Assembly: GCF_010725725.1 (NCBI RefSeq)
Contig: NZ_AP022599.1
Coordinates: 1,054,001-1,118,000 of the forward strand
Direction of reading: 5' to 3'
Origin: Mycolicibacterium pulveris
Lineage (GTDB): Bacteria > Actinomycetota > Actinomycetes > Mycobacteriales > Mycobacteriaceae
DNA length: 64,000 bases
A model generated the notes under the pieces. It had not been told where the DNA came from, did not search any database, and saw nothing but the letters and a program-made list of their open reading frames with translations. This document shows positions 10,608-38,510 of the stretch, in pieces; the first letter of the stretch is position 1; the number at the start of each line of letters is the position of its first letter. The translations under genes and the position numbers were made by a program.

Positions 10608-10619
10608 GTGGGCCCCTCT

Positions 10620-23771: not shown

Positions 23772-24644
23772 ATGAGCACGGTCGCGTTTTTGGGGTTGGG
23801 CCACATGGGCGGGCCGATGGCGGCGAACCTTGTCGCCGCGGGCCACACCGTGCACGGGTTCGACCCGGTGCCGGACCTGCGGGACGCGGCCGCCGGGGCG
23901 GGCGTTCAGCCCTTCGACAGCGGCGCCGCGGCCGTCGATGCCGCCGATGTCGTCATCACCTCGCTTCCCAACGGGGACATCGTCAAATCGTGCTACGCCG
24001 AGGCGTTGCCCGCGGCGAAGGACGGCGCCCTGTTCATCGACACCTCGACGATCTCCGTCGACGACGCCCGCGCGGTGCACCAGCAGGCGCTCGACCGCGG
24101 TCTCGCCCAACTCGACGCGCCGGTGTCCGGCGGGGTGAAGGGCGCAACGGCGGGCACGTTGGCGTTCATGGTCGGCGGCGAGGACGACGCCGTTGAGCGG
24201 GCCCGGCCGGTGCTGGAACCGTTGGCGGGCAAGATCATCCACTGCGGGCCATCCGGCACGGGCCAGGCCGCCAAACTGTGCAACAACATGGTGCTCGCGG
24301 TGCAGCAGATCGCCATCGGCGAGGCGTTCGTACTGGCCGAGAAGCTGGGCCTGCCGGCCCAGTCCCTGTTCGACGTCATCACCGGCGCGACCGGCAACTG
24401 CTGGGCCGTGCACACCAATTGCCCGGTGCCGGGCCCGGTGCCGACCTCACCTGCCAACAACGACTTCAAGCCGGGGTTCGCCACCGCGTTGATGAACAAG
24501 GACCTCGGCCTGGCGATGGCCGCGGTCAAGTCGACGAATGCCAAAGCGCCGCTTGGCAGTCACGCCGCGCAGATCTACGCCGAGTTCAACGCCGACCACG
24601 CCGACAAGGATTTCAGCGCGGTGATCGAACTGCTGCGCAGCTGA
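23772..24644 (+). CDS. mmsB: 3-hydroxyisobutyrate dehydrogenase
   Basis: This 290-residue beta-hydroxyacid dehydrogenase oxidises 3-hydroxyisobutyrate to methylmalonate semialdehyde, the substrate of MmsA. It has the Rossmann motif FLGLGHMGGPMAANL, the substrate-binding DAPVSGGVKGATAGTL, and the catalytic Lys in GTGQAAKLCNN. The ATG at 23772 is preceded by GGAGA. It is the third gene of the mms operon. It ends 2 bp before the convergent nitroreductase gene, leaving no room for a separate terminator. Confidence 0.94.
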   Translation: MSTVAFLGLGHMGGPMAANLVAAGHTVHGFDPVPDLRDAAAGAGVQPFDSGAAAVDAADVVITSLPNGDIVKSCYAEALPAAKDGALFIDTSTISVDDARAVHQQALDRGLAQLDAPVSGGVKGATAGTLAFMVGGEDDAVERARPVLEPLAGKIIHCGPSGTGQAAKLCNNMVLAVQQIAIGEAFVLAEKLGLPAQSLFDVITGATGNCWAVHTNCPVPGPVPTSPANNDFKPGFATALMNKDLGLAMAAVKSTNAKAPLGSHAAQIYAEFNADHADKDFSAVIELLRS

Positions 24645-24646
24645 TC

Positions 24647-25360
24647 TCAGCGGTTGCCCGACGACGCGTCGAGCCAGGCGCGGTTGCCGTACCCGTCGAG
24701 GTGGACGACCTCTTGGACCGGCTTGCGGGTCGTGGGTCCGTATCGACCGCGCGGCCAACCGAGCGGCACGACGCACACCGGCGTCACCGTCAGCGGCAGG
24801 CCCAGGATTCGTCGCGCAGACGTCACGCTCCACAGCGGCAGGGTGATCAGCGACGCGCCGAGCCCCATCGCCCGTGCGGCCAGCAACAGATTCTGCACGC
24901 TGGGATAGATCGAACCGAAGAACGTCGTCTCCCCCACGAACGGGGACGGCGCGTACGGTAACCGCATGCCGCCGCGCAAGCACGGCACGACAAGGACCGG
25001 GATCTCGCCGAAATGGTCGACCTGCCATTGCGTGGCCCGCAGCATCTTCTGCATCGATTCGTCCCCTGCGACGACGCGCCGGCCGATCGCGCCGTAGAGC
25101 GACCAAGCTTGGCGATACCGCCTGCCGAGTTGCTCCTTGACGCTCCGGTCCTTCACCACGATGAATTCCCAGTTCTGCCCGTTGGACCCGGTCGGGGCCC
25201 GCAGCGCCAACTCGATGCACTTGAGCACGACGGCATCGTCGACGGGATCGGGAAGCACGCGGCGCACCGCGCGCTGGGTCATCATCGCCTCGACCAGAGG
25301 CATGTTCACGCGGGCGAGCGCTTCTTCGGCGGTCGGAATGGCGGTGGGAATGTCGGCCAT
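24647..25360 (-). CDS. Nitroreductase-family flavoprotein
   Basis: This is a 237-residue member of the FMN-dependent nitroreductase fold. The N-terminal FMN-binding pattern MTQRAVRRVLPDPVDD is followed by ALRAPTGSNGQNWEFIVVKD, then a dimer/FMN region SVQNLLLAARAMGLGASL. Members reduce nitro groups, quinones or flavins, and some cleave aromatic rings or iodotyrosine; the role here is unknown. It lies 32 bp after the HAD gene in the same direction and ends against mmsB. Confidence 0.9.
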   Translation of the reverse strand: MADIPTAIPTAEEALARVNMPLVEAMMTQRAVRRVLPDPVDDAVVLKCIELALRAPTGSNGQNWEFIVVKDRSVKEQLGRRYRQAWSLYGAIGRRVVAGDESMQKMLRATQWQVDHFGEIPVLVVPCLRGGMRLPYAPSPFVGETTFFGSIYPSVQNLLLAARAMGLGASLITLPLWSVTSARRILGLPLTVTPVCVVPLGWPRGRYGPTTRKPVQEVVHLDGYGNRAWLDASSGNR

Positions 25361-25392
25361 TGATCGAAACTACCGCGCCGACCGACTAGACG

Positions 25393-26196
25393 CTACGCCG
25401 CCGACGGCTTGTGGGTCTTCCACCAGTTGGCGTGCAGCCGTTGACATTCGGCGATGCGCAACGGATCGCTGCCATCGAAGTCCGGCCGCACGGCCACCGC
25501 CGTCGGGATCTCGGGGGTGCCTTCGCCGGTGATGACGACGGTGGCCAGCCCCGCGGCGTTGGCGGCGCGCAGCCCGGACGCCGAGCCGCTGACGGCCAGC
25601 GCGTCCTCGGCGGACAGCCCCAGCTCCCAGAGGGCGTGCCGGTGCGCGTCGGGATCTGGCATCGTCTTCTTCACGTCCTCGGCGGTCACCACGACCTCGA
25701 CGAGGCCCTCGCCGGCGAGCTGCCGCACCAACGGCTCCGCCCAACTGCGCTGCCCATTGGTCACCACGGCCACCTGCACGCCCGCCGCGAACGCCTCCAC
25801 CAGCAGGTCCGCCAGCCCGGGACGCGGCGCGAGATCGTGTGCGAGGACCAGCTCGTCGAACATCATCGTCTTGGTTGTGTAGATGTCGTCGGCCAGCAGT
25901 GCGGTCAGCACGTCGGACTCGGTGGCCACGCAGCGCTTGCGCAGCTCGGCCGCCACCCGCTGCCGCTCGTCGGTCAGCGCCAGCAGCTGGCGGTAGCGCG
26001 GGACCGACCACTCGAAGTTCAGGCCGTGGGCGGCGAAGGCGGCGTTGTAGGCCACGCGGTGCCCGTCGCACTCGATGTCGGTCAACGCGTCGAGGTCGAA
26101 GAGGACAGCGCGCAGCTGGCTGACGGCCGCGGCCGGCGCTGCGTTGTCCCACCAGAAGCGTCCGGCGCGCCAGGTCTTCTCCTGCGATGTCGGCAT
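25393..26196 (-). CDS. HAD-superfamily hydrolase (CbbY-like) with altered motifs
   Basis: This is a 267-residue HAD protein of the CbbY/beta-phosphoglucomutase-like subgroup: AVLFDLDALTDIECDGHRVAYNAAF at the nucleophile motif, VVTNGQRSW at motif II, KKTMPDPDAH at motif III and SGSASGLRAANAAGL at motif IV. The usual DxDGT is DLDAL and the usual acidic ED of motif IV is SG, so Mg2+ coordination and phosphatase activity may be weak or lost. It starts 103 bp from the divergent response-regulator gene. The substrate is unknown. Confidence 0.8.
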   Translation of the reverse strand: MPTSQEKTWRAGRFWWDNAAPAAAVSQLRAVLFDLDALTDIECDGHRVAYNAAFAAHGLNFEWSVPRYRQLLALTDERQRVAAELRKRCVATESDVLTALLADDIYTTKTMMFDELVLAHDLAPRPGLADLLVEAFAAGVQVAVVTNGQRSWAEPLVRQLAGEGLVEVVVTAEDVKKTMPDPDAHRHALWELGLSAEDALAVSGSASGLRAANAAGLATVVITGEGTPEIPTAVAVRPDFDGSDPLRIAECQRLHANWWKTHKPSAA

Positions 26197-26231
26197 GAAT
26201 CAAGGGTGTCTCACGTCACAGCTGCCCGCCT

Positions 26232-26245
26232 CCCCCGCAGGGGGG
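26232..26245. promoter_or_regulatory. CCCCCG-centred palindrome upstream of the two-component operon
   Basis: CCCCCGCAGGGGGG is a G/C dyad in the 103-bp region between the HAD gene and the response-regulator gene. It matches the site at 4069-4082 at 12 of 14 positions. Both precede genes with a NarL/LuxR-type HTH, which suggests autoregulation, by inference only. Confidence 0.4.
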
Positions 26246-26299
26246 ATAACCAAGGTCAACTTCTGCAGCCGCCGCCCGCACCCGCAATAAGGTGGTGCC

Positions 26300-26965
26300 A
26301 TGACCGCGACGGCCGAACCGGTACGAATTGTGCTGGTAGACGACCACGAGATGGTGATCGAAGGGCTCAAGGCGATGCTTGCCGCGTTCTCCGAACGCGT
26401 CGTGGTGGTCGGCCAGGCCGTGGGTGCTGAGCGTGCGCTCAGCGTGATCGACGAGCTCGATCCCGACATCGTGCTGTGTGACGTGCGGATGGAGGGTTCC
26501 AGCGGCCTGGATCTGTGCCTTGAACTGCGTGAACGCCACCCCGACCGCAAGGTCGTGATGCTGTCGGTCTACGACGACGAGCAGTACCTCTTTCAGGCCT
26601 TGCGGGTGGGCGCGTCCGGGTACCTGCTCAAGAGCATCAGCAGCGACGAGCTGGTGCGCCAGCTCGAGTTTGTGCACCGCGGCGAGACCGCGATCGACCC
26701 CGGCATGGCCGCCAGGGCCGCCGACACCGCCGCGAGGTTGCAGCGCGACGAGTTCTGGCCCGGCGCGCGCCAAGGCCTGACCCAACGCGAGAGCGAAATC
26801 CTGTCGTTCGTCGTCAACGGGCTGTCGAACCGGGCGATCGCCACCAAACTGGTGATCGGCGAGGAAACCGTCAAGAGCCACCTGAGCTCGATCTACCGCA
26901 AGCTCGGGGTCAGCGACCGCACCGGCGCGGTGGCCACGGCGCTACGCGAAGGGATCTACCGTTGA
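26300..26965 (+). CDS. NarL/FixJ-type response regulator
   Basis: This 221-residue regulator has an N-terminal receiver (VLVDDHEM acidic pocket, phospho-acceptor Asp61 in VLCDVRM, Lys in YLLKSI). A LuxR/NarL DNA-binding domain follows (LTQRESEILSFVVNGLSNRAIATKL, then EETVKSHLSSIYRKLG). Its stop overlaps the start of the kinase gene (TTGA), so the pair is translationally coupled. The target genes are unknown; the divergent HAD-nitroreductase operon and the pair itself are the nearest candidates. Confidence 0.93.
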   Translation: MTATAEPVRIVLVDDHEMVIEGLKAMLAAFSERVVVVGQAVGAERALSVIDELDPDIVLCDVRMEGSSGLDLCLELRERHPDRKVVMLSVYDDEQYLFQALRVGASGYLLKSISSDELVRQLEFVHRGETAIDPGMAARAADTAARLQRDEFWPGARQGLTQRESEILSFVVNGLSNRAIATKLVIGEETVKSHLSSIYRKLGVSDRTGAVATALREGIYR

Positions 26966-28206
26966 CCTCCGGCCCACGACCCGGCGACGCGGTCCGCGAC
27001 CTCAGCGAGTACGCGCTGGCCGCCGACCGCGAGCTGGCGCTGCTGCGCGAACTGATCCAGGCCGCCTCCAAGGGCCCAGGGGTCGAGCCGTTGGCCGCGG
27101 CGGCCGCGCGGATGATCACCGCGGCGACCGCCAGCGACGTGTGCTTCGTGCACGTGCTCGACGACACCGACCGCTCGCTGACCCTCGCGGGCGCGACGCC
27201 ACCGTTCGACGCGGAGGTCGGCAAGATCAGACTGCCCCTGGGGCAAGGGATTTCGGGTTGGGTGGCCAGCCACCGCGAGCCGGTGGTGATCACCGAGGAC
27301 AAGGAGTCCGATCCGCGGTACATGCCGTTTCAGTCGCTGCGCGGCTCGGACTTCACGTCGATGGTGTCGGTGCCGATGGAGACCGATCCGGGTGGTCTGG
27401 TCGGTGTGCTCAACGTGCACACCGTTGAGCGACGCGACTTCACCGACCGCGACGTCGAGCTGCTGCTGGTGATCGGCCGGCTCATCGCCGGCGCGATGCA
27501 CCAGGCCCGGCTGCACCGCCAACTGGTCGCCCGCGAACGTGCGCACGAGGTGTTCGTCGAGCAGGTGATCGAGGCGCAGGAACTCGAACGCCGCCGGCTG
27601 GCCGGCGACATTCACGACGGCATCTCGCAGCGGCTCGTCACGCTGTCCTACCGCCTCGACGCCGCCACCCGCGCCGACGATCCGAATATCGCGGCCGAGC
27701 AGCTCGGCATGGCCCGCGAACTGGTGAAGTTGACGCTCGAGGAGGCGCGCGCGGCGATCAGCGGGCTGCGTCCGCCGGTGCTCGACGACCTCGGCCTCGC
27801 CGGCGGACTGGCCAGCCTTGCCCGCTCGATTCCGCAGATCGACATCGACGTCGACCTCGAGGAGACCCGGCTGCCCGACCACATCGAGCTCGCGCTGTAC
27901 CGGATCGCGCAGGAATGCCTGCAGAACGTCGTCAAACACGCCAACGCCTCCGGCGCCCGGCTCACCTTCGCCGTCGATGCGGGCGAGTCCACGCCCGTGG
28001 CGCGCCTCGAAATCGTCGACGACGGCGTCGGTTTCGACACTTTCGAGCATCCGCTGGGCAGCGACGAGATGGGCGGCTACGGGCTGCTGTCGATGGCCGA
28101 ACGCGCCGAGATCGTCGGCGGCCGGCTCAACATCCGGTCCCGACCGGGCGCAGGGACGGCCGTCACCGCGACGATCCCGCTGCCGTCCGCGGCCACCACC
28201 CCTTAG
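26962..28206 (+). CDS. GAF-domain sensor histidine kinase (HisKA_3 / NarX-DevS-like)
   Basis: This is a 414-residue soluble kinase with no membrane segment. It has an N-terminal GAF domain (about 45-190), a HisKA_3 dimerisation segment with phospho-acceptor His218 in RRLAGDIHDGISQRL, and a GHKL ATPase domain (ALYRIAQECLQNVVKHANAS, DDGVGFD, GGYGLLSMAERAE). It is cytoplasmic, so it senses an internal ligand or redox cue. The start is TTG 26962, overlapping the regulator's TGA. It ends in a strong hairpin shared with the convergent MarR gene. Confidence 0.92.
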   Translation: MTSGPRPGDAVRDLSEYALAADRELALLRELIQAASKGPGVEPLAAAAARMITAATASDVCFVHVLDDTDRSLTLAGATPPFDAEVGKIRLPLGQGISGWVASHREPVVITEDKESDPRYMPFQSLRGSDFTSMVSVPMETDPGGLVGVLNVHTVERRDFTDRDVELLLVIGRLIAGAMHQARLHRQLVARERAHEVFVEQVIEAQELERRRLAGDIHDGISQRLVTLSYRLDAATRADDPNIAAEQLGMARELVKLTLEEARAAISGLRPPVLDDLGLAGGLASLARSIPQIDIDVDLEETRLPDHIELALYRIAQECLQNVVKHANASGARLTFAVDAGESTPVARLEIVDDGVGFDTFEHPLGSDEMGGYGLLSMAERAEIVGGRLNIRSRPGAGTAVTATIPLPSAATTP

Positions 28207-28209
28207 CGC

Positions 28210-28266
28210 CGAAATAGCATTCCAGGCTGGAAATTCGCCCCGGCGACGACCCGGAATGCTATTTCG
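28210..28266. terminator. Bidirectional hairpin between histidine-kinase and MarR genes
   Basis: A perfect 14-bp inverted repeat, CGAAATAGCATTCC (28210-28223) and GGAATGCTATTTCG (28253-28266), fills the space between two convergent stop codons. Unlike most local hairpins the stem is AT-rich. Placement 3 bp from one stop and 8 bp from the other fits a two-way transcription stop. Confidence 0.65.
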
Positions 28267-28274
28267 CGGGGCCG

Positions 28275-28787
28275 TCAGAAGTCGCCGGAGTTTCGGCGCA
28301 GTGTCTCGATGGAATCGGCCAGCGCACGTGATTCGGCTTCGGACATCCCGATGTCGGCGAACACCTCCTTGTTGAGGGTCACCGTCGCGTCCTCCACGGT
28401 CGAGCGGCCGAGATCGGTGATCCGCACCAGCGTGGTGCGGCCGTCGGTCGGATGAGGGGTGCGCTCCACCAGGCCGTCGGCCTCCAGGCGCCGGATCGCG
28501 TGGGTGACGCTGGTGACGTGCACCTGCAGCCGGTCGGACGCCTTGGTGATCGGCAGTTCCCCGTTGCGGCTGAACGCCAACAGCCGCAGCAGCTCGAATC
28601 GCGAAAAGCTCAGGTCATAAGGCCGCAGCGCGGTTTCCACCCGGGCCAGCAGGATCTGGTGCGCACGCATCACCGACGTCACCGCGACCATGCCGTCGGC
28701 GACGTCGCCCCATCCGGCGCGCTCCCAGTTGGCGCGGGCCAGCGCGATGGGGTCGCGGTGGTCAGGCTGCCACGATTCGGAGGCCAC
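28275..28787 (-). CDS. MarR-family transcriptional regulator (Rv0737-type)
   Basis: This is a 170-residue winged-helix regulator. The HTH region (about 60-105) is FSRFELLRLLAFSRNGELPITKASDRLQVHVTSVTHAI, and the wing includes PHPTDGRTTLVRITDLG. Helices at both ends should form the dimer interface. It starts with GTG preceded by GAAGGGG. It lies 41 bp after the aminotransferase gene, so it may be the last gene of that operon and may regulate it. In M. tuberculosis the MarR gene Rv0737 follows rslA directly, as I recall; here four biosynthetic genes separate the two. Confidence 0.88.
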   Translation of the reverse strand: MASESWQPDHRDPIALARANWERAGWGDVADGMVAVTSVMRAHQILLARVETALRPYDLSFSRFELLRLLAFSRNGELPITKASDRLQVHVTSVTHAIRRLEADGLVERTPHPTDGRTTLVRITDLGRSTVEDATVTLNKEVFADIGMSEAESRALADSIETLRRNSGDF

Positions 28788-28828
28788 GCCCCTTCTTACC
28801 TCACCCCCGCGGGCGCCTGCTGCTGATT

Positions 28829-29851
28829 TCAGCGCACGGCGGCCAGCACGGCGCGGGTGGCGCGGCGGTCACCGACGGTGATGCGCACGCCGCCGTTGGC
28901 GTAGTGACGCACCCGCAGCCCGGTGCCGTCGAACACCTCCCGCCACGGCCGGTCACGCTGCGGCAGATACACGAAGTTGGCGTGGCTGTCGGTGCTGTAC
29001 ACCCCCATCGAGGCCAACCGCATGCGCAGATACCGGGTTTCGCTGCTGATCATCTGGATACGTTGCTGCAGTTCAGTTTCCGCTTCATAGGAGGCGACGA
29101 CGGCGGCCAGTCCGGTGGTGGCGATGCCGAAGGGCAGCTGCATGGCCCACAGCCGGCGGGCCAGCGGCGGGGCGCAGAAGCCGTAGCCGATGCGCAGCCC
29201 GGCGAGGCCGTAGGCCTTCGAGAACGTCCGAACCACCACGAGATTCGGATACCGCGCGACCAGTTCCGCGGCGTCGAGTCGCGCCTCCGGTGGCAGGAAC
29301 TCGACGTAGGCCTCGTCGAGCAGCACCACGGTGCCCGGCGGCACGCGGTTGAAGAACTCCTCGATGTCGGCAGCGGGCTCGATCGTTCCGGTCGGGTTGT
29401 GCGGTCGGCACAGCACCACCACCCGGGCCGAGGCCGCCGCACGTGCCAACGCGTCCAGGTCGTGGCGGCCGTGGCCGTCGAGTGCCACGGTGGCCGAAGC
29501 CAGCCGGGCCATCTGGGCGAACACCGGATACCCATCGAACGTCGGGTACGCCATCGCCAGCGTCTCACCCGGGCGCGTCACGGCCTGCAGCACCTGCATG
29601 ATCACGCCGGTGGCGCCGACGCCGACGACCACCTGGTCGGCGCGCACGCCGATGTGGGTGGCGATCAGCGCGCGCAACTGCTGCGGCAGGTACTCCGGAT
29701 AGCGGTTGGCGGTGTCGATCGAGGCGCTCAAGGCCGCCTGCACGGCGGGCAGTGGCGGAAACGGATTCTCGTTGAGCGACAACGCGAACGGGTCCAACCC
29801 ATCGTGGATTACACCGGCGGCTTCGGTCGTGTCACGGTCCGGTGTTGTCAT
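28829..29851 (-). CDS. Histidinol-phosphate-aminotransferase-like PLP enzyme
   Basis: This is a 340-residue fold-type I aminotransferase of the HisC/Cobalamin-CobC group. It has SLNENPFPPLPAV, NRYPEYLPQQL, CRPHNPTG, LLDEAYVEF, and the PLP lysine in RTFSKAYGLAGLRIGYGF. The true hisC should lie elsewhere in a histidine operon; this copy is in an operon with a KAS III-like and a ThDP enzyme, so it probably aminates a pathway-specific ketone or aldehyde. I chose ATG 29851 because it overlaps the TGA of the KAS gene (TGATG); ATG 29866 is in frame. Confidence 0.88.
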   Translation of the reverse strand: MTTPDRDTTEAAGVIHDGLDPFALSLNENPFPPLPAVQAALSASIDTANRYPEYLPQQLRALIATHIGVRADQVVVGVGATGVIMQVLQAVTRPGETLAMAYPTFDGYPVFAQMARLASATVALDGHGRHDLDALARAAASARVVVLCRPHNPTGTIEPAADIEEFFNRVPPGTVVLLDEAYVEFLPPEARLDAAELVARYPNLVVVRTFSKAYGLAGLRIGYGFCAPPLARRLWAMQLPFGIATTGLAAVVASYEAETELQQRIQMISSETRYLRMRLASMGVYSTDSHANFVYLPQRDRPWREVFDGTGLRVRHYANGGVRITVGDRRATRAVLAAVR

Positions 29852-30858
29852 CAGCGACCGCCCCACCGCACCGCAGCGGCTCCTGCGAAGTCGCCGGCGT
29901 GTGCGAACGCCGCCATCATCACCACGCCACCGGCCCGCAACCGGCCCTCACCGATCGCCCGGTCGAAGTTGATCGGAATGCCCGCGGCGAACAGGTTTCC
30001 GCACTCATCGAAAGTGTCGACGTGGCGCTCCTTGGGCAGTTCGAGCGCCTCGCGCCAGTTGCGCAGAAACACCCGGTTGGGCTGGTTGGTGACGAGCAGG
30101 TCGAGGTCTTTGGGTTTGACGCCGATCCGGTCGCACACCGCATAGGACACCTCGGGAACCTGACGGTTGCCGCGGGCGAGCACCTTGGTGATCTTGCTTT
30201 CGGTGAACCCGATGTAGCCCTCGCCCGGACCCGGCTGCCACCATTTACGCGGCGGGTCCACCGCGATGGTCATGTCCCCGGCGAACTCCCCGTAAGTGCG
30301 GCACTCGACGTCGAGGATCGGTGAACGCTCCGACACCGCCACCAGGCCCACCGCGGCGCCGTCGCCCGGCACGGCCGCCTGCGCCTTGCGCCGCACGCGC
30401 GGTTGGTCGAACACCTGCCCGGCCGCGTTCTGCGCGACGGCGATCAACGCGGTCTGCCCCGCGCCCGAGGCCAGTAGTTGACGCGCCACCTGCATGCCGA
30501 GCACGAACGCCGCGCAGCCGCCGTTGTGCAGATCCAGCACCCAATTCGGTTTCATCCCAAGGCGATGCGCCACGGCCCCGCCGCTACCGTAGAACGGCAT
30601 ATCCGGCAACTGGGTGTGGGTGATCAACACGTCGGCGCCGGCGACCACGTCGGCTCCGTGCCGCTCGATCAGCCCGGCGGTCGCGCGCTCGACCATGTCG
30701 ACCGCGGTCTCGTCCGGCCCGACATGATGGCGAAAGCGCGGCGCGCGGAACATCACGTTGTCCCGCAGGTCATCCGATTCGGCGAACTGCGCATAGTAGC
30801 TCGCACCGATCGGTTCACCCGGTAGATAGGTGGCGACGTCGAGAAGGCTGACGGTCAT
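29851..30858 (-). CDS. KAS III-like condensing enzyme (thiolase superfamily)
   Basis: This 335-residue protein aligns along its length with 3-oxoacyl-ACP synthase III. The nucleophile Cys is in DLHNGGCAAFVLG. The usual HQAN motif reads NQPN (in LLVTNQPNRV), so the catalytic His is Asn. The third residue, Asn, is kept in ECGNLFAAGIP. Loss of the His argues against normal decarboxylative condensation and for acyl transfer or a modified condensation. It begins 4 bp after the SRPBCC gene and overlaps the aminotransferase start. It is not the housekeeping FabH; its substrate is unknown. Confidence 0.85.
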   Translation of the reverse strand: MTVSLLDVATYLPGEPIGASYYAQFAESDDLRDNVMFRAPRFRHHVGPDETAVDMVERATAGLIERHGADVVAGADVLITHTQLPDMPFYGSGGAVAHRLGMKPNWVLDLHNGGCAAFVLGMQVARQLLASGAGQTALIAVAQNAAGQVFDQPRVRRKAQAAVPGDGAAVGLVAVSERSPILDVECRTYGEFAGDMTIAVDPPRKWWQPGPGEGYIGFTESKITKVLARGNRQVPEVSYAVCDRIGVKPKDLDLLVTNQPNRVFLRNWREALELPKERHVDTFDECGNLFAAGIPINFDRAIGEGRLRAGGVVMMAAFAHAGDFAGAAAVRWGGR

Positions 30859-30862
30859 GTGC

Positions 30863-31528
30863 TCACCTCATCCAATCGGGTGTCACGGGAAGCCCGTTGT
30901 GGTGGCGGTATTCGGCGATCGCCTTGAGGTTTTGCAGCTCCAGGAGGTGACCCGCCCCGAACATGTCCCAGAAGTCGCCGACCCAGACGGGGCGCTGCGG
31001 CGGCGCGGTCTCCGGATAGGGGTTTCGGTCGTAGAACGGGTGATGGCAGTTGGTCCACAGCACCACCGATCCCGGCTTGTCGAACACCAACTGCGCGTCG
31101 ACGATCCGCATCAGGTAGATCATCCACAGGTGCGCGCCCTGGTCCCACGCGCAGTGGTAGTCGACGGTCATCGCGTCGCTGTCGGCGCGCGTGCGGGTGA
31201 AGATCCGGGTCTCCGAGCCGAGCCGGTCGTAGGCGATCCAGAGCCCGGGTTCCTCGGTGGTGGCGAAGCCGCGCAGGCTGTAGGTCCACTCTTCGAGGCT
31301 GCGGGTGTCGGACATGTAGTCGAACAGCTCGCCGGGTGGACAGTCGATATAGCTGTTGACCGTGCAGAATTCGCCGAACACCTGGTCATGCGGATACACC
31401 GACCGCATCATCTCCATGATGATCGGCGTGGCCTTCTCCCGCGGCGACGTCTCGATGCGGATGAGCCCGTCGAGCGGATCGGCGGTGCCGCGGTGGGTGG
31501 TGATGTCATCAAGTGCGGGCAACGACAT
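30863..31528 (-). CDS. SRPBCC/START-like hydrophobic-ligand-binding protein
   Basis: This is a 221-residue protein with the pattern of the Bet v1-like SRPBCC fold: FCTVNSYIDCPPGELFDYMSDTRSLEEWTYSLR at the first strand and helices, alternating strands through the centre, and a long C-terminal helix (FGAGHLLELQNLKAIAEYRHH). Relatives include polyketide cyclases/aromatases and lipid-transfer proteins. Its start overlaps the ThDP gene by 20 bp and it precedes the KAS III-like gene, which suggests it holds or cyclises a pathway intermediate. No catalytic residues can be named. Confidence 0.75.
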   Translation of the reverse strand: MSLPALDDITTHRGTADPLDGLIRIETSPREKATPIIMEMMRSVYPHDQVFGEFCTVNSYIDCPPGELFDYMSDTRSLEEWTYSLRGFATTEEPGLWIAYDRLGSETRIFTRTRADSDAMTVDYHCAWDQGAHLWMIYLMRIVDAQLVFDKPGSVVLWTNCHHPFYDRNPYPETAPPQRPVWVGDFWDMFGAGHLLELQNLKAIAEYRHHNGLPVTPDWMR

Positions 31529-33206
31529 GAGATCGGTTCTCCTTTGTGCGGACGCTGTCTGACGTGAGAAACGCGGCGAACGGCGGGATTTCGTCTGCCG
31601 AGCATTCGACGCTGATGACCGAGGGACCGTCGTGGCCGAGCGCGGAGTCCACCGCGGCGGGCAGGTGTTCGAGGTCGCCGACGTCGGCGGCGGGCAGCCC
31701 GGGGAACATGGCCGCCAGCCCGGCCCCGAGTCGGCTCGGGCCGAAGCGGTTGTAGCTGTAGCGGTCGCCGTAGAAGAGTTGCTCGCGGGTCACGCACATG
31801 GCGTGCGCGTGGTTGTCGAACAGCAGAAACGTCACGGGCAGCCGATACTGCAGTGCGGTGTGAATCTCCATGCCGTGCATGAAAAAGGCGCCGTCGCCGG
31901 CGATCACCACGGTGCGCCTGCGTCGTGCGAACGCCACGCCGACACCGGCGCCGAAGCTGTAGCCCATGCCGCCCATGCCGAGCGCGACGAGGTATCTGCC
32001 GTCGCGGCGCACCGGCAGATGGTGGATCGCCGACGCGCCGATGTTGCCGGCGTCGACGACGATGTCGACGCCGTCGGGCAGCGCGTCGTCCAGCACGGCC
32101 ATCGCGTCGCGGTACCGGATCCCCGGGCCGTCGTGTGCTGGGGGCTGAAGACAGGTGCGCGGCACCGCATCCGGCACCCGCACGCCGGTGGCGCGGCCGT
32201 TGCCCGTCAGCGCGGCGGTCAACAGCGTCAGCGAGCCGCGCAGGTCGTCGGTGTGCACGTGGGTGCACGGCAGGTGCGGTGGGTACGACCCGATCGAGTA
32301 CACCGGCGTCGCCGCCAGCGCCGCGTCCAGGCCTGCACGTGCGGTCACCGACATGCGGGTGCCCACCAGCAGGCACAGCGCGCTGGCCGCAACGGCGTCC
32401 GCGACACCGGGATGCCCCATCACGCCGGTCACACCGAGCGACGACGACGACCCCGAGCCGGGCGTACCCGCCACGTCCTTGGCGTCCGGCACGCAGGCCA
32501 CCCGGGCCCGGACCAGGGCCCGAAGTTGTTCGAGTTCGGCGCGCGCGTCGTCCCGCGCGACCTGGTCGCCTGCGATGATCGTGACCGGCCCGTCGGCGCG
32601 TTGCAGCGCGCGAACGATCGGGTGAGGGTTGCCGAGCTGCGCGACCGGTTCTTGGGACGGTTCGATTCCGCCGTTGACGGGCAATTCGGCTTGCTGAATG
32701 TCCTTGGGCAGCAACAAGACCGCGGGCCCGCGCGATGTCTTGGCGGCTGCTATGGCCTCGGGCAGCGCCGAGACGATGCCGGCCGGGGTCAGCACGCGGC
32801 GGCAGTACACCGCCACCGCGGAGAACAGCGCCTGCGCGTCGAGCGCGCCGTTGCGGCCGCTGGTGTCCTGGAACGCCCCGCGCCCGTCGAGCGTCGTCGG
32901 CGCCTGACCGATGAGCGCCAGCACCGGAACCCGGCTGGCGAACGCCTCCCCCAGCCCGGGCAGCGTGTTCAGGCAGCCGCCGCCCGAGGTGGCGGCCAGC
33001 ACGCCCAGACCGGCACCGCTGCGGCTGTATCCGTCGGCCATCGTGGCGGCCGAGAACTCGTGCTTGGCCAGCACCGCGGTGATCCCGTCACAGAAGTGCG
33101 CGGCGTCGTAGAGGTCCTCGATGTTGGCGCCGTCGACCCCGAAGAGATGCCCGACGCCGATCGCCGCGAGGTATTCGACGATGTGGTCGACCACCCGATG
33201 GGTCAT
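31509..33206 (-). CDS. Thiamine-diphosphate-dependent enzyme (acetolactate synthase / decarboxylase-like)
   Basis: This 565-residue ThDP enzyme has the three-domain order of the acetolactate synthase/benzoylformate decarboxylase family. The cofactor-activating Glu is in LAKHEFSAATMADGY (near residue 49). The C-terminal ThDP/Mg site is IAGDGAFFMHGMEIHTALQYRLPVTFLLFDN. It probably decarboxylates a 2-oxo acid and either releases the aldehyde or ligates it to an acceptor. It leads the operon ThDP - SRPBCC - KAS - aminotransferase - MarR and has its own predicted SigL promoter. True acetolactate synthase (ilvB) is unlikely because no ilvN or ilvC is nearby. Confidence 0.87.
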   Translation of the reverse strand: MTHRVVDHIVEYLAAIGVGHLFGVDGANIEDLYDAAHFCDGITAVLAKHEFSAATMADGYSRSGAGLGVLAATSGGGCLNTLPGLGEAFASRVPVLALIGQAPTTLDGRGAFQDTSGRNGALDAQALFSAVAVYCRRVLTPAGIVSALPEAIAAAKTSRGPAVLLLPKDIQQAELPVNGGIEPSQEPVAQLGNPHPIVRALQRADGPVTIIAGDQVARDDARAELEQLRALVRARVACVPDAKDVAGTPGSGSSSSLGVTGVMGHPGVADAVAASALCLLVGTRMSVTARAGLDAALAATPVYSIGSYPPHLPCTHVHTDDLRGSLTLLTAALTGNGRATGVRVPDAVPRTCLQPPAHDGPGIRYRDAMAVLDDALPDGVDIVVDAGNIGASAIHHLPVRRDGRYLVALGMGGMGYSFGAGVGVAFARRRRTVVIAGDGAFFMHGMEIHTALQYRLPVTFLLFDNHAHAMCVTREQLFYGDRYSYNRFGPSRLGAGLAAMFPGLPAADVGDLEHLPAAVDSALGHDGPSVISVECSADEIPPFAAFLTSDSVRTKENRSHVVART

Positions 33207-33238
33207 GGCTCACCTGCCTTCGCGCGCCTTTCCCTGGT

Positions 33239-33266
33239 GATACGACGCACTGCGCAGTTGAGTTCA
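33239..33266 (-). promoter_or_regulatory. Predicted SigL promoter of the ThDP/KAS operon
   Basis: On the minus strand, TGAACT (33266-33261), 16 bases and CGTATC (33244-33239) lie just after rslA, with the -10 ending 32 bp before the ThDP start codon. The same hexamers and the same spacing lie upstream of sigL. The SigL consensus I recall from M. tuberculosis is TGAACC-N16-18-CGTgtc. The match is seen directly; use by SigL is inferred. Confidence 0.72.
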
Positions 33267-33280
33267 ACGAGCGGCGGAAT

Positions 33281-34000
33281 TCACAGCTGCCGTTCGAGCA
33301 ACACCTCTCCGGAGTCGGCCGAAACCAGTTGCACGGCGGCGATTTCGTCGACCTGCATCGGGGTGTTGGCGCTCGGTAAAGCGGTGGCGCCGGACAGCCC
33401 CAACCAGGTGGCGACCTGCTCGTGGCTGCCGTCGCGGCCGATCACCACCATGCCGAGGTTCTGGGGCGGGGCGTCGCGCTGACCCCAGTCGCCGTAGGTG
33501 CAGGCCATGTCGATGCGGCTGCCCCAGCCGTAACCGGTGACGGTGATGGTGGCGTTGATCGGCGTCTCGGACACCTTGGTCATTTCGAGCTGTTGACCCG
33601 AGGCCTGCGGCGGCGGGGTCTGGGAGCCCAGGCTGTCGGGGCGCAGCACCAGCACGAGCCCGAGTGCCAGCAGCGCGGCGGCCAGCGCGACGGCGGCGGT
33701 GGTCATCCAGCGGGCCCGCCTGCGCCGGGCCGCCACCTTGTCCAGCAGGTTGTCGAGCACCTCGCCACGCAGCGGCGGCGGGTCCGGCCGATCCAGCTCG
33801 ACGATGTCGTCGGCGTCGATCTTGGCCAGCAGCGCGGGAATTCCGCTCAGTTCGGCGACCGCGCCCCGGCACTGTGCGCAGGTCTGCAGGTGTGCCTCGT
33901 ATTCGCGGCGCTCGTCGCTGGACAGCGAGCCCAGCACGTAGGCGGCGTCCCAGGTGACATAGCGGTCGTCATCGCCTCGGGGGGAACCGAATTCGGTCAT
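33281..34000 (-). CDS. rslA: Anti-sigma factor RslA
   Basis: This 239-residue zinc-associated anti-sigma factor binds and holds SigL. The cytoplasmic N-terminus has the ZAS motif AHLQTCAQC (His-x3-Cys-x2-Cys) near residues 36-44. One membrane helix lies near residues 98-120 (TTAAVALAAALLALGLVLVL). An extracytoplasmic domain follows, which may sense the signal. Reduction or oxidation of the Cys pair controls SigL release in M. tuberculosis RslA. Its ATG overlaps the sigL stop (ATGA). Confidence 0.92.
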   Translation of the reverse strand: MTEFGSPRGDDDRYVTWDAAYVLGSLSSDERREYEAHLQTCAQCRGAVAELSGIPALLAKIDADDIVELDRPDPPPLRGEVLDNLLDKVAARRRRARWMTTAAVALAAALLALGLVLVLRPDSLGSQTPPPQASGQQLEMTKVSETPINATITVTGYGWGSRIDMACTYGDWGQRDAPPQNLGMVVIGRDGSHEQVATWLGLSGATALPSANTPMQVDEIAAVQLVSADSGEVLLERQL

Positions 34001-34521
34001 CGCGTCACCCCCATCTCCTGCAGCTTGAGCCGCAGCGCGCGCACGCCGTAGTGCAGCCGCGACTTCACCGTGCCCTCGGCGATCTGCAGATCGGCGGCGA
34101 TCTGTGCGGTGGTCCAGCCCTGGTAATAGGCGCGGCGGATGACCGCCCGATGTTCCTCGGACAGTTCGCGAATGGCCTCACCAAGCAACATCCGGTCCAG
34201 TGCCGTCTCCACCTCGTCGGGGCCAGCGCGGTCCGCGGCTTTCTCCATGTCCGGGGTACCGGATTCGCTGCGGAACCGGGCGCTGCGCCGCTCGTCGATA
34301 ATGAGATTACGCGCCACGGTGAACAACCACGCCCGTGCCGATCGCTCGCTGTCGGCGGTCACCTCGGGATGGCGCCAAGCACGCAATAGCGTTTCCTGCA
34401 CGACATCCTCCGCCCGGGCCGTATCCCCCGTCAGCCGCACGGCATAGCGCCAGATGGCCGCGGCGTGCTCGTCGTAGAGCATCCGCATGACTTTGGCATC
34501 CAGGGCCTCCGGGTCCTCCAA
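33997..34521 (-). CDS. sigL: ECF sigma factor SigL
   Basis: This 174-residue ECF sigma factor has region 2 (LYDEHAAAIWRYAVRLTGDTARAEDVVQETLLRAWRHPE) and region 4 (LSEEHRAVIRRAYYQGWTTAQIAADLQIAEGTVKSRLHYGVRALR). Partner anti-sigma gene rslA overlaps its stop, as in Rv0735-Rv0736. The start is TTG 34521 with an ideal RBS (GGAGG, 6-bp spacer). In M. tuberculosis SigL controls its own operon and lipid/polyketide-type genes, as I recall. A matching promoter lies upstream, and a second lies in front of the ThDP operon. Confidence 0.94.
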   Translation of the reverse strand: MEDPEALDAKVMRMLYDEHAAAIWRYAVRLTGDTARAEDVVQETLLRAWRHPEVTADSERSARAWLFTVARNLIIDERRSARFRSESGTPDMEKAADRAGPDEVETALDRMLLGEAIRELSEEHRAVIRRAYYQGWTTAQIAADLQIAEGTVKSRLHYGVRALRLKLQEMGVTR

Positions 34522-34538
34522 ACTGAACCTCCATCAGT

Positions 34539-34566
34539 GATACGAGGTTGCCGGGCCTCCAGTTCA
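34539..34566 (-). promoter_or_regulatory. Predicted SigL autoregulatory promoter
   Basis: On the minus strand, TGAACT (34566-34561), a 16-base spacer and CGTATC (34544-34539) precede sigL; the -10 ends 17 bp before the TTG start, giving a very short leader that contains only the RBS. The element is identical in both hexamers and in spacing to the one at 33239-33266. Confidence 0.72.
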
Positions 34567-34574
34567 GTATTCGC

Positions 34575-34632
34575 CGAACGTGGGTTACCCGCACGCTCCG
34601 AGCGCTCGCGGCGTGCGGGTAACCCACGTTCG
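34575..34632 (-). terminator. Long perfect palindrome after map (CGAACGTGGGTTACC repeat family)
   Basis: A perfect 22-bp inverted repeat (34575-34596 and 34611-34632) surrounds a 14-nt centre, starting 11 bp beyond the map stop codon and ending 9 bp from the SigL -35. One arm begins CGAACGTGGGTTACC. A second, decayed copy lies at 48886-48944. It probably acts as a U-less terminator and insulates sigL from map. Confidence 0.6.
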
Positions 34633-34643
34633 CGCCAGAAAGG

Positions 34644-35441
34644 CTATTGCGTGAGGATGCGCGGACCGTCTTCGGTGACCGCGACGGTGTGCTCCCAGTG
34701 CGCGGCACGCGAACCGTCGGCGGTGACGACGGTCCACTCGTCCTCGAGCACCACCGTCTTGGTGGTGCCCAGCGTGAGCATGGGCTCGATGGCCAGCACC
34801 GACCCCGGCGCCAGATAGGGCCCACGCCCCGGTGCGCCTTCGTTGGGCAGAAACGGGTCCATGTGCATGTGCCTGCCGATGCCGTGACCGCCGTAGCCGG
34901 CGACGATGCCGAACCTGCGGCCGTGACGCTTTTCGGCGGCGCGCGCGCCGGTCTCGATCGCGTGCGAGACGTCGGTGAGCCGGTTACCCGGCACCATCGC
35001 GGCGATGCCGGCCACCATGGCCTCCTTGGTGGCCTCCGAAAGCGCCTCGTCGACCGGAATCAGCTGCCCGACACCGAACGTGATCGCCGAGTCGCCGTGC
35101 CAGCCGTCCAGGATCGCCCCGCAGTCGATGGACACCAGGTCCCCCGCCGCCAGCGTCTCGTCGGCCGACGGAATGCCATGCACCACACGGTCGTTCACCG
35201 ACGAACAGATGCTGGCCGGAAAGCCCTGGTAGCCGAGGAACGACGGAACCCCGCCGCCGTCGCGGATCACCGACTCGGCGACCTCGTCGAGCTCGAGCGT
35301 GGACACCCCCGGCGCGGCGGCCTGCCGCACGGCCGCGAGCGCCTCGGCCACCAACGCGCCCGCGGCGGCCATCGCGTCGAGTTCACCGGGGGTGCGCCGC
35401 GCGACGACCCGCCGGTTGCGCAGACCGGGTAGCCCGATCAT
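34644..35441 (-). CDS. map: Methionine aminopeptidase type I
   Basis: This 265-residue enzyme removes the initiator Met from new proteins. Metal ligands of the pita-bread fold are visible: Asp in [14 protein letters not shown] (two Asp), His in [13 protein letters not shown], Glu in AIEPMLTLG, and Glu in AHWEHTVAV near the C-terminus. No N-terminal SH3-binding extension is present. It follows adk by 3 bp in the secY-adk-map operon, as in Rv0732-Rv0734. Confidence 0.95.
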
Positions 35442-35444
35442 CTG

Positions 35445-35993
35445 CTACTTGCCGAGCGCGTGCAGCGCCCGGGCGAACACCTCGTCGAGCCCGCCGACCG
35501 CGTCAACGGTCTGCAGGTTGTTGTCGCGGTAGTACTCCAGCAGCGGCTGGGTCTCATCGCGATAGACCTGCATCCGGTTGTGGATGATCTCTTCGGTGTC
35601 GTCGGCACGGCCCCGCGCTTTGAGCCGCTTGAACAACTCCTCCTCGGACACGGCGAACTCCAGCACCGCGTCCAGCTTGGTGTTGCGCTGCTTGAGCATC
35701 TCGTCGAGCGCCTTGGCCTGCTCGACCGAGCGCGGATAGCCGTCGAGGATGAAACCGTCGGCCGCGTCGGGCTGGGAGATCCGGTCCTCGACCAGCTTGT
35801 TGGTCAGTTCCGAAGGCACCAGGTCACCGGCGTCGAGGTACCGCTTGGCCTCCACCCCGAGCGGGGTGTTCTCGCCGATGTTCTTGCGGAAAAGGTCCCC
35901 GGTCGAGATCTGCGGGATGCCGAGCTTCTCGGAAAGTTTCTGGGCCTGCGTGCCCTTACCTGCACCAGGTGGCCCGAGTAGCACGACCCTCAC
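35445..35993 (-). CDS. adk: Adenylate kinase
   Basis: This 182-residue kinase interconverts ATP + AMP and 2 ADP. It has the P-loop [11 protein letters not shown], the AMP-site [16 protein letters not shown] and the Arg-rich RGRADDT. Between [11 protein letters not shown] and the next helix there is only a short LID, as in the short mycobacterial Adk (181 residues in M. tuberculosis). The start is GTG 35993, overlapping the secY stop (GTGA). A longer frame through secY exists but has no membrane or kinase character. Confidence 0.96.
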
Positions 35994-37327
35994 TTCAGGA
36001 ACCCTTCGTAGTTGCGTTGCATGAGCTGGCTTTCGATCTGTTTGACCGTATCCAACCCGACACCGATCATGATCAACACCGCAACGCCGCCGAACGGCAG
36101 GTTTTGCACCGGTCCGCTGCCGCCGACCGACAGGAACAGGTTCGGCAGCACGGCGATCCCGCCCAGGTAGATGGAGCCCGGAAGGGTGATCCGGTTGAGC
36201 ACATAGCGCAGGTAGTCGGCGGTCGGCGCGCCCGGCCGGATGCCGGGGATGAAGCCGCCGAACTTCTTCATCTCGTCGGCGCGTTCGTCGGGGTTGAACG
36301 TGATCGACACGTAGAAGTACGTGAAGAACACGATCAGGCCGAAGTAGACCCCGATGTAGACCGGGTCCGACGGGTTGGACAGGTTCTCGGCGACGAACCG
36401 CTGCCACCACCCGGTGCCCGGGTTGGAGCTGCCGCTCTGGATCAGCTGCGTGATCAGCTGCGGAATGTAGATCAGCGACGACGCGAAGATGACCGGGATG
36501 ACGCCGGCCTGGTTGACCTTCAGCGGAAGGTACGTCGAGGTGCCGCCGTACATCCGGCGACCCACCATCCGCTTGGCGTACTGCACCGGGATGCGGCGCT
36601 GGCCCTGCTCGACGAACACCACGCCGACGAGGATGGCCAGCGCGCCGGCGCAGACCAGGGCGAACACCAGGCCGCCGCGGCTCTCCAGGATCATCTGGCC
36701 CTCGCCGGGCATTGCCGAGACGATGCTGGCGAAAATGATCAGCGACATGCCGTTGCCGATGCCGCGCTCGGTGACCAGCTCGCCCATCCACATCAGCAGC
36801 GCCGCGGCCGCCGTCATCACCAGCACGATCACGACGAGGGTGAAGATGTCGATGCCGTCGCTCTGGCCCTGGATGATGTCGAGCGAGCACCCCTGCAGCA
36901 GTCCCCCGTTGGCCGCCAGCGCCACGATGCTGGTGGCCTGCAGGATCGCCAACGCGATGGACAGATAACGCGTGTACTGCGTCATCTTGGTCTGGCCGGC
37001 CTGGCCTTCCTTGCGCAGCTGTTCGAACCGCGGGATCACCACGGTCAGCAGCTGCACGATGATGCTCGCGGTGATGTAGGGCATGATGCCGACCGCGAAC
37101 ACCGACAGCTGCAGCAGCGCGCCGCCGGAGAACAGGTTGATCAGCGAGTAGACCTGACCGGCGTCGCCGCCGCTGACCTCGGCGATGCACTTCTGGATGT
37201 TCGGATAGTTCACCCCGGGCGACGGAATCGAGGCGCCGACCCGGTAGAGGAGGACGATGCCCAGGGTGAAGAGGATCTTTCGCCTGAGGTCGACTGTCCG
37301 CAGCGATGAGATGAAAGCCGAGAGCAC
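35990..37327 (-). CDS. secY: Preprotein translocase subunit SecY
   Basis: This 445-residue membrane protein forms the Sec channel. It begins [38 protein letters not shown], the standard start, and has about ten membrane segments. Family signatures include [30 protein letters not shown] near the C-terminal third. It is the first gene of secY-adk-map. In mycobacteria it is separated from the spc ribosomal operon by the sugar and methyltransferase genes seen here, and therefore needs its own promoter in the 256-bp gap. Confidence 0.97.
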
Positions 37328-37374
37328 TCTTCCTCCTGCGCAGCCGACCGTGGTGGCCGCGACGTGCGAACTGG

Positions 37375-37389
37375 GCTGGTCGGACCAGC
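37375..37389. promoter_or_regulatory. 15-bp perfect palindrome upstream of secY
   Basis: GCTGGTCGGACCAGC lies 48 bp upstream of the secY start codon in the 256-bp gap shared with the divergent methyltransferase gene. It could be an operator or a leader hairpin; nothing further can be said. No clear -10/-35 pair stands out in the rest of the gap. Confidence 0.3.
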
Positions 37390-37543
37390 GTCATGGTTAA
37401 GTCGTGTGCGGACCTCCGCCGAGCGCGCAGCCTGCGAAGTTACCCGTCAAACAGTCTACGAGAGTAACAGTTGGAATCGCCTCGCCGTGCACCCCAGACT
37501 CACAGCGGCCTCTCAGGTCGGGAACATACCGTGTCAGACATCT

Positions 37544-37564
37544 CGTTACCCCCACTAAGTAACG
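37544..37564. promoter_or_regulatory. CGTTAC/GTAACG dyad upstream of the methyltransferase pair
   Basis: CGTTAC (37544-37549) and GTAACG (37559-37564) are separated by nine bases and end 19 bp before the ATG of the first methyltransferase gene. The spacing fits a dimeric repressor site. The regulator is unknown. Confidence 0.3.
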
Positions 37565-37583
37565 AACGGCTGAGGGGACTCAG

Positions 37584-38510
37584 ATGACGCGGACCGACAA
37601 TGACACCTGGGATCTGGCTTCCAGCGTCGGGGCGACGGCCACGATGGTCGCCGCCGCCCGAGCGCTGGCCAGCAGCGCTGACCAGCCGCTGATCGACGAT
37701 CCGTTCGCCGATCCGTTGGTGCGGGCGGTCGGTGTGGACTTCTTCACCCGCCTGGTCACCGGGGAGCTGCGGCCCGAGGATCTCGATGACAGCGAGACGG
37801 CCGGAATGCAGCGGATGGCCGACAACATGGCGGTGCGGACCAGGTTCTTCGACGACTTCTTTCGGGACTCGGCGGCCGACGGCGTCCGGCAGGCGGTGAT
37901 CCTGGCCTCCGGGCTGGACGCGCGGGCCTACCGGTTGGACTGGCCCGCCGGCGTCGTCGTCTATGAGATCGACCAACCCGCCGTCATCGACTTCAAGACC
38001 ACGACGCTGGCCGACTTGGGTGCCGCACCGACCGCCGAGCGTCGCACGGTTGCCGTCGACCTGCGCCATGACTGGCCGTCGGCGCTGATCGGCGCGGGCT
38101 TCGACCCCACCCGACCGTCGGCGTGGAGCGCGGAGGGCCTGCTGGGCTATCTGCCGCCCGACGCCCAGGACCGGCTGCTCGACACGATCACAGAGTTGAG
38201 CGCCCCTGGCAGCTGGATCGCGGTGGAGAGCGTGCCCCACGTCGATCCGGACCGCCATGACAAGGCGGTCGAGCGGATGCGCACGGCGTCGCAACGCTGG
38301 CAGCAGCACGGTTTCGACCTGGACTTCGCCGAGCTGGTGTACCTCGGTGACCGCAACGAGGCCGCCGCCTACCTACAGGAGCGCGGATGGCGGCTGACCC
38401 GCCGGAGCGTCAGGGACCTGCTGGTCGCCAACGGGTTGCCGCCGTTGGACGACGAGGACGCCGCCGACTTCGGTGAGCTGCAGTACGTCAGCGGGAGGCT
38501 GTCCGCATGA
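37584..38510 (+). CDS. S-adenosylmethionine-dependent methyltransferase (TIGR00027 family)
   Basis: This 308-residue protein belongs to the large mycobacterial family of putative SAM O-methyltransferases (Leu carboxyl methyltransferase fold). Family marks are [45 protein letters not shown] (SAM site), [17 protein letters not shown] and [30 protein letters not shown]. Substrates are unknown for most of the family. It overlaps the next, homologous gene by 4 bp. A homologue, Rv0731c, occupies the same place beside secY. Confidence 0.9.

Follow-up and report, generated by a model that had tools for sequence, protein, structure and literature searches.

The present analysis concerns a 64,000-nucleotide (nt) stretch of the Mycolicibacterium pulveris genome (NZ_AP022599.1, positions 1,054,001 to 1,118,000; hereafter the window), in which the genes of the extracytoplasmic function (ECF) sigma factor SigL and its anti-sigma factor RslA are followed by a block of four biosynthetic genes. 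The minus-strand site 33266-33239 in front of this block presumably acts as a SigL-dependent promoter, which would make the block a direct output of SigL and RslA, and the site 34566-34539 in front of sigL appears to be the autoregulatory promoter of SigL. We assign a probability of about 0.82 to this reading. The genes are arranged on the minus strand in the order map, sigL, rslA, thiamine diphosphate (ThDP) enzyme, SRPBCC protein, KASIII-like enzyme, aminotransferase and marR, and the relevant features are as follows:

34539..34566, minus strand: putative SigL-type promoter of sigL-rslA (-35 element TGAACT at 34566-34561, spacer of 16 nt, CGTATC at 34544-34539)
33239..33266, minus strand: putative SigL-type promoter of the ThDP-SRPBCC-KAS-aminotransferase block (-35 element TGAACT at 33266-33261, spacer of 16 nt, CGTATC at 33244-33239)
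33997..34521, minus strand: sigL, ECF sigma factor, with the TTG start as listed (NCBIfam NF007227 above cut-off; PDB 6dv9_F)
33281..34000, minus strand: rslA, anti-sigma factor; its zinc-type HxxxCxxC motif starts at residue 37 (PDB 3hug_B, 6.2e-22; zf-HC2)
31509..33206, minus strand: predicted ThDP-dependent carboligase-type enzyme, 565 aa (TPP_enzyme N, M and C domains; PDB CsmA/BbmA, 7e-48)
30863..31528, minus strand: predicted SRPBCC cyclase, relative of CqsB2, 221 aa (PDB 6ipv CqsB2, 1.4e-45)
29851..30858, minus strand: KASIII-like enzyme, 335 aa, with Cys115, Asn258 (FabH His position) and Asn288 (ACP_syn_III and _C domains; FabH alignment)
28829..29866, minus strand: predicted class I/II aminotransferase of the HisC/aromatic type (Aminotran_1_2; PDB 4r2n, 3.8e-52)
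28275..28787, minus strand: marR at the position of rv0737, a neighbour and not a block member (MarR domain)

Both sites were read in the window sequence as TGAACT-GGAGGCCCGGCAACCT-CGTATC (34566-34539) and TGAACT-CAACTGCGCAGTGCGT-CGTATC (33266-33239), confirming the initial annotation, according to which the twelve letters and the spacing of 16 nt are identical. The distances to the start codons, described there as functional, amount to 17 nt from the end of the first site to the TTG at 34521, which is the start of the sigL frame and is preceded by GGAGG, and to 32 nt from the end of the second site to the ThDP start codon (ATG, 33206). RslA and ThDP genes are separated by 74 nt. Within the block the ThDP and SRPBCC genes overlap by 20 nt, the SRPBCC and KAS genes are 4 nt apart, and the KAS and aminotransferase genes overlap by 16 nt; marR follows after a gap of 41 nt. 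A scan of 28200-34700 for sigma-70 promoters detected no promoter-like site and two terminator-like sites, which is within the expectation from shuffles, and the region 24000-38000 had no match in Rfam.

Based on the protein sequence the window sigma factor is the SigL orthologue (254.7 bits and E 3.4e-75 against M. tuberculosis SigL, PDB 6dv9_F), and its partner matches RslA (PDB 3hug_B, zf-HC2 domain). The residues His54 and Asp60, which determine the specificity of M. tuberculosis SigL at the "-12" and "-11" positions (PMC6372665), appear to be kept as H48 and D54 of the window query, the offset of six being read from the equal-length PDB match and not from a printed alignment. The HxxxCxxC motif of RslA is present in 103 of 104 loci and is also kept in the window protein; M. 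tuberculosis RslA has been shown to lose zinc and to form a disulfide upon oxidation (PMC2877774). M. tuberculosis SigL uses the promoters of pks10 and Rv1139c (PMC6372665), and its regulon comprises the sigL, pks10 and Rv1138c-Rv1139c promoters. The window genome shares with the M. tuberculosis regulon the orthologous pair, the autoregulatory-type site and a site before a type III polyketide synthase (PKS) gene paired with an ICMT-family gene, and differs from it in having a further biosynthetic block next to the pair, headed by a separate SigL-type promoter.

The motif is rare in the genome. In the 64-kb window TGAACY-N15..18-CGTRTC was found twice in comparison to 0.12 expected occurrences, and only one of 100 shuffles reached two or more. 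The genome-wide scan for TGAACY-N16/17-CGTRTC, which had been suggested as a check, yielded five matches in 5.48 Mb and one for the reversed-pattern control; with the stricter pattern TGAACY-N16-CGTRTHA only the two window sites were detected (reversed control: none). Among the relaxed matches, L004 (also L236; L and G numbers denote our loci and genomes) is located directly 5' of the chalcone-synthase-type PKS gene mentioned above, and two, L001 and L005, lie antisense inside a nickel hydrogenase gene and a gene of an ScfRs-type regulator, respectively. An exact-pattern scan across the genus, in which at least 132 of 198 genomes matched and the reversed control matched as well, was left out of counting.

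The letter-for-letter identity of the two window sites, on the other hand, is incidental, and it is the conservation that counts. Full identity of the sigL and ThDP sites was observed in only 15 of 75 loci having both promoters, the closest relative (L036, 93% identity of the ThDP protein) has two unlike sites, and the varying letters, i.e. the sixth of the -35 element and the R of CGTRTC, often do not agree between both promoters of one genome. A recent duplication of one site from the other was rejected as well, since their spacers differ and conservation is confined to the core.

For the comparative analysis 198 genomes of the window's genus (Mycobacterium) were searched for the ThDP protein and for SigL, the latter being found at E 1e-40 or better in at least 171 of them. 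From these 171 genomes 80 sigL neighbourhoods were fetched, mostly the closest ones and not a random selection, and unlinked ThDP copies were likewise picked among the matches listed in the ThDP search. A copy was regarded as linked when sigL or rslA was present on the same fetched stretch (L200 has rslA only). Identical upstream sequences (L116, L117, L118, L121) and ThDP remnants (<300 bits) were dropped before counting, leaving 83 linked and 31 unlinked copies, for which the region from 160 nt upstream to 10 nt inside the ThDP start was searched for TGAACY-N16/17-CGTRTC with at most one mismatch. The site was detected before 81 of the 83 linked copies (58 of them perfect) and before three of the 31 unlinked ones (Fisher p 5e-21), whereas this level was reached by about 1.2% of 20,000 windows drawn at random from these loci, true sites included. 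Upstream of sigL the motif occurs with at most one mismatch in 90 of 103 distinct regions.

The information content of the aligned sites is concentrated in TGAAC and CGT, with 1.99 bits per column in 82 linked ThDP sites (spacer 0.37, 5' flank 0.32) and 1.95 bits per column in 100 sigL sites (spacer 0.55, 5' flank 0.12). The -35 consensus of SigL is TGAACC, and the -35 element and spacing used here rest on the 100 sigL sites. In L100, L101, L102, L127, L128 and L199, in which sigL and the block are 4-7 kb apart instead of the usual distance of about 1.3 kb, the site is retained as well, and it is present with two mismatches in the inverted block of a Nocardia locus (L134). The type III PKS gene served as a control located elsewhere in the genome: it was searched in 60 genomes and 30 loci were read, taking one best copy per genome where many have several. 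By our own count TGAAC-N16-CGT precedes it in 17 of the 25 genomes that encode sigL and in none of the five that do not (G014, G025, G032, G041, G052; sigL status among the matches listed). The second window site is ascribed to SigL because of the shared motif, the linkage and this control, and the earlier prediction of the block as a direct SigL target is strongly supported by these comparisons as well as by the lack of the motif before marR in 24 loci described below.

Several observations weigh against the assignment to SigL. The initial annotation had noted a resemblance to the M. tuberculosis SigL consensus, which holds only in part. For the -10 element of M. tuberculosis SigL the consensus T-G-N-C/A-A-G preceded by CG has been reported, the G at -11 being the strongest preference (PMC6372665). 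The window sites read CG-T-A-T-C-A-C and thus agree at -14, -13, -12, -9 and -8, in addition to the TGAAC-N16-CGT framework, but carry A at -11 and C at -7, where M. tuberculosis SigL prefers G. These are preferences only, as three of the four characterized M. tuberculosis promoters match at -11 and two at -7 (PMC6372665); A at -11 was found in 33 of 100 sigL sites and 10 of 82 ThDP sites.

Furthermore, the aligned sites had been pre-selected at two mismatches or fewer, so that the conservation of their core is partly by construction. Three unlinked ThDP copies (L222, L224, L230) carry perfect motifs, located 127-133 nt 5' of the ThDP gene, and two further ones (L197, L209) a motif with two mismatches; the former three might be regulated by SigL in trans. 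The genome with L230, G041, has no sigL at E 1e-40 among the matches listed, which gives one ThDP site among four sigL-less genomes with a close ThDP copy (G041 with, G012, G172 and G183 without the site; sigL status on the same basis). Outside the genus, the 16 kb of L308 contain a perfect motif but no sigL. In the PKS control the complete motif with at most one mismatch was present in only 12 of 30 loci. A paralogue of SigL with 52% identity is encoded in the same genome (L269, G000:C1:4247932-4248423, G000 being the window genome), 3.16 Mb away. Finally, the linkage contrast is phylogenetically clumped: the ThDP tree, obtained by a quick search and containing many weak forks, shows six linkage changes, and a strict independent-pairs test found only one pair on well-supported branches, too few to inform. 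The contrast between linked and unlinked copies is therefore suggestive and does not represent many independent events.

The block is an old neighbour of sigL-rslA. All four block genes were found, at the score limits applied, in 58 of the 80 sigL neighbourhoods, two were partial (L102, where the stretch ends, and L113, a remnant) and 20 had none. Among other named relatives, the block was found in M. celatum, M. fragae, M. barrassiae, Mycolicibacterium frederiksbergense and Mycolicibacterium sphagni, whereas no block is present beside sigL in Mycolicibacterium parafortuitum and M. helveticum. Among 61 loci outside the mycobacterial part of the set (L134-L195 minus L136) the block lies near a sigL homologue in six, namely in Nocardia vaccinii (inverted), N. 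niigatensis, N. jejuensis, Nocardia sp. AG03, Aldersonia sp. and a metagenome-assembled genome of the Mycobacteriaceae; the other 55 are without it within the fetched DNA. The adjacency is hence widespread, reaching Nocardia and Aldersonia, and not peculiar to the window genome. In a class-wide sample the SRPBCC protein was detected in 28 of 394 genomes, 24 of which belong to the window's own family. Eleven block-like loci outside the genus (L304-L314) were read: L311 (G536) has sigL nearby and a perfect motif, and nine of the eleven have no motif, the ThDP start being uncertain in L306 and L307.

Pieces of block genes between rslA and marR were found in L112, L113 and L114, the aminotransferase match in L113 being nearly full length, and the site still precedes the ThDP piece in L112 (two mismatches) and L113 (one mismatch); these remnants are consistent with a loss of the block. 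In M. tuberculosis rv0737 is located immediately downstream of sigL-rslA (PMC13002591), in line with the earlier statement that no such block adjoins the pair in this species. In M. smegmatis the rv0737 homologue Ms_1492 is assigned to a separate cluster (PMC13002591), and judging from the locus numbers Ms_1488-1491 may correspond to the block; a Ms_1488 promoter fragment served as non-target control in the same study. In L100 (G060, 2044-4547) and L128 (M. fragae, 10430-12938) genes of a FAD_binding_4 oxidase and an FMO-like flavoprotein, which may be tailoring enzymes, separate rslA from the block and are encoded on the other strand.

Regarding the function of the block, its four predicted enzymes match the types that assemble the carbazole core, a relationship that adds to the reading of the initial annotation. 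In Streptomyces this core is formed by the aminotransferase CqsB7, the ThDP enzyme CqsB3, the KASIII-like CqsB1 and the carbazole synthase CqsB2 (PMC7466098; nzsH, nzsJ and nzsI in a further cluster), and all four types are predicted in the window. CqsB2 (6ipv) is the sole PDB relative of the SRPBCC protein (E 1.4e-45), which has no hit in Pfam or NCBIfam and whose homologues, where named among the 120 listed of 1215, appear only as "SRPBCC family protein" or "hypothetical protein". The proposed catalytic residues Glu105, Tyr144, Tyr172, His206 and Glu209 of CqsB2 (PMC7466098) correspond in an alignment mapped by hand to Asp101, Tyr138, Tyr166, His194 and Glu197 of the window cyclase, which are invariant in 111 of 111 sequences; four of the five positions thus equal CqsB2, and Glu105 is replaced by Asp. 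Lys217 of the aminotransferase is kept in 97 of 97 sequences, and Glu50 of the ThDP protein, which is part of an HEF motif and was taken as catalytic, in 114 of 114. On the function of CsmA/BbmA, the best PDB match of the ThDP protein, and on the M. smegmatis locus tags the literature search returned nothing.

The pathway assignment has difficulties of its own. The KASIII-like protein keeps Cys115 and Asn288 and has Asn258 at the FabH His position in 108 of 108 sequences, i.e. Cys-Asn-Asn in comparison to Cys-His-Asn of FabH. The region 28829-33206 comprises four enzyme genes only and, unlike the described carbazole clusters, contains no gene of an acyl carrier protein (ACP) or a second KASIII (CqsB6, CqsB5) and none of a prenyltransferase. 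Because of the Cys-Asn-Asn triad the block is called a variant of the carbazole-core pathway, and its product is predicted from homology. A classical-looking cluster from another family of the class, L304, encodes proteins 26-37% identical to those of the window (35% for the ThDP protein). It has the order KAS-cyclase-ThDP, with the aminotransferase further on, instead of ThDP-cyclase-KAS-aminotransferase, and retains Cys-His-Asn in the KAS protein and Glu at the Glu105 position of the cyclase. Seven other aligned clusters from outside the genus (L305, L306, L308, L309, L310, L312, L313) resemble the window in carrying Asn and Asp. Given Asn and Asp in the window-type clusters versus His and Glu in L304, the mycobacterial cassette represents a distinct branch and is not filed as a carbazole cluster. 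One genome (G436, contig 22) harbours both L304 and L305, about 140 kb apart, and hence a classical-looking carbazole-type cluster together with a block of the mycobacterial type.

The rival explanation with the best prospects leaves the regulation as proposed and concerns the product alone, which could be another arylacyloin-derived compound, e.g. from phenylpyruvate; we consider this to be nearly an even chance. It would account for the best PDB match of the aminotransferase, a "putative phenylalanine aminotransferase" (4r2n), for the substituted His and Glu positions that L304 retains, and for the absence of an ACP, prenyltransferase or other tailoring gene from the window block. A carbazole-like product is favoured by the complete set of the four core enzyme types and the four kept CqsB2 positions.

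According to the mechanism that we propose, RslA would keep SigL inactive until oxidation causes loss of its zinc and formation of a disulfide, as in M. tuberculosis RslA, on whose biochemistry (PMC2877774) the choice of oxidation as signal is based. The released SigL would then fire both promoters, amplifying itself and turning on the block. Since the gap between rslA and the ThDP gene is only 74 nt, read-through from sigL-rslA may add to the expression of the block. By homology, the aminotransferase would provide an arylpyruvate, which the ThDP enzyme would couple to a second keto acid; the KASIII-like enzyme would add an acyl chain and the CqsB2-like cyclase would close the aromatic ring, yielding a carbazole-like or other aryl-fused, possibly redox-active product. 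In M. smegmatis treated with H2O2, sigL is slightly up at a low and down at a high dose according to our own reading of the table in PMC4520597. This is no simple peroxide induction, and the cue may therefore be another oxidant or envelope stress.

SigL is known mainly through the regulon of a pathogen with scattered named targets. In the window its neighbour is a complete small pathway with a SigL-type promoter of its own, which gives SigL a concrete and testable metabolic read-out in harmless species and exposes a family of CqsB2-like enzymes across mycobacteria, whose product may be redox-active. In most relatives examined the pair adjoins the block and both carry the conserved SigL-type signal, suggesting a metabolic output of SigL that has been lost from the neighbourhood of sigL in, for example, the tubercle bacillus. 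A search of one literature library, conducted mostly without full texts, revealed no link of SigL to block genes and no report of carbazole-type genes in mycobacteria; PMC10100901, in which both "carbazole" and "Mycobacterium" occur, was covered by its search entry only. Going further, we tentatively suggest, with somewhat less than even confidence, that the founding local output of SigL and RslA in the Mycobacteriales was a redox-induced small aromatic metabolite (an o-quinone or catechol being probable) from a variant of the carbazole-type pathway, and not cell-wall polyketides. An oxidation-sensing sigma factor would thereby control the synthesis of a redox-active compound; the switch would have been retained in M. 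tuberculosis and further lineages, which lost the pathway.

Instead, a different ECF sigma factor such as the SigL paralogue might recognize the sites, the link to SigL being merely positional. The gene of this paralogue is followed by a small gene that was read as anti-sigma, although it lacks HxxxCxxC and has no Pfam match, and then by a ketosynthase-domain gene of the PKS type, and similarity among SigL, SigE and SigH sites has been described (PMC4821874). This appears improbable, as the upstream region of the paralogue contains no SigL-type site (best match with three mismatches), the motif precedes sigL itself in most regions, and it mostly goes with sigL: among the matches listed, sigL-less genomes have it in none of five cases before the PKS gene and in one of four before the ThDP gene. 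Copies of a palindromic repeat that also occurs upstream of sigL are located directly 5' of the paralogue.

An equally small likelihood is given to the view that the block owes its expression chiefly to MarR or to transcripts reading through from the promoter of sigL, the second site being a functionless inherited sequence. The genes all share one strand and follow each other at short distances, and the MarR protein has been found to bind the sigL-rslA promoter fragment and to regulate it positively (PMC13002591). Against this stand the near-invariant core columns in sites whose spacer and flanks drift, and the retention of the site where the block is inverted or remote from sigL, with other genes in between in L100, L102 and L128, the three loci read. 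No SigL-type site with up to two mismatches was found upstream of marR, neither in 24 distinct loci that lack the full block nor in 64 that have it (88 in total); on account of the former 24, the idea that the site constantly accompanies the 3' end of rslA was rejected as well.

The initial annotation had included marR in the operon, which does not hold: MarR is a separate old neighbour of sigL-rslA. The gene remains close to rslA where the block is absent and has no site of its own. In 23 of 26 loci lacking the full block it begins 27-175 nt beyond the rslA match, the exceptions being the remnant-bearing L112, L113 and L114. MarR as an obligate block member was accordingly rejected. The MarR gene studied as Rv0737/Ms_1492 together with sigL-rslA is the same that lies near the same pair in the window; the parts of PMC13002591 that were covered describe its action on the sigL promoter and do not discuss the intervening genes. 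For Rv0737/Ms_1492 conserved redox-sensing cysteines are stated (PMC13002591); the window MarR (28275-28787) contains no cysteine. A MarR operator at the palindrome ACTGCGCAGT in the spacer of the ThDP promoter was rejected, as the spacer is not conserved.

Chance matches at both sites, which could be argued from the shortness of the motif, the two relaxed matches inside genes and the matches of the exact-pattern scan and its reversed control, are practically excluded by the shuffles, the conservation in linked copies and the restriction of the strict pattern to two sites in the genome.

Between map and sigL, at 34575-34632, the window contains a palindrome with arms of 29 nt that are 93% complementary and enclose no loop. 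It belongs to a dispersed repeat with 57 matches in the genome, both strands counted. The combination of GGGTTACCC with GGGTAACCC was found 5' of sigL in only three of 81 loci checked, the window included. An array of the palindromic repeat with a spacing of about 90 nt is located at G000:C1:3759394-3759821.

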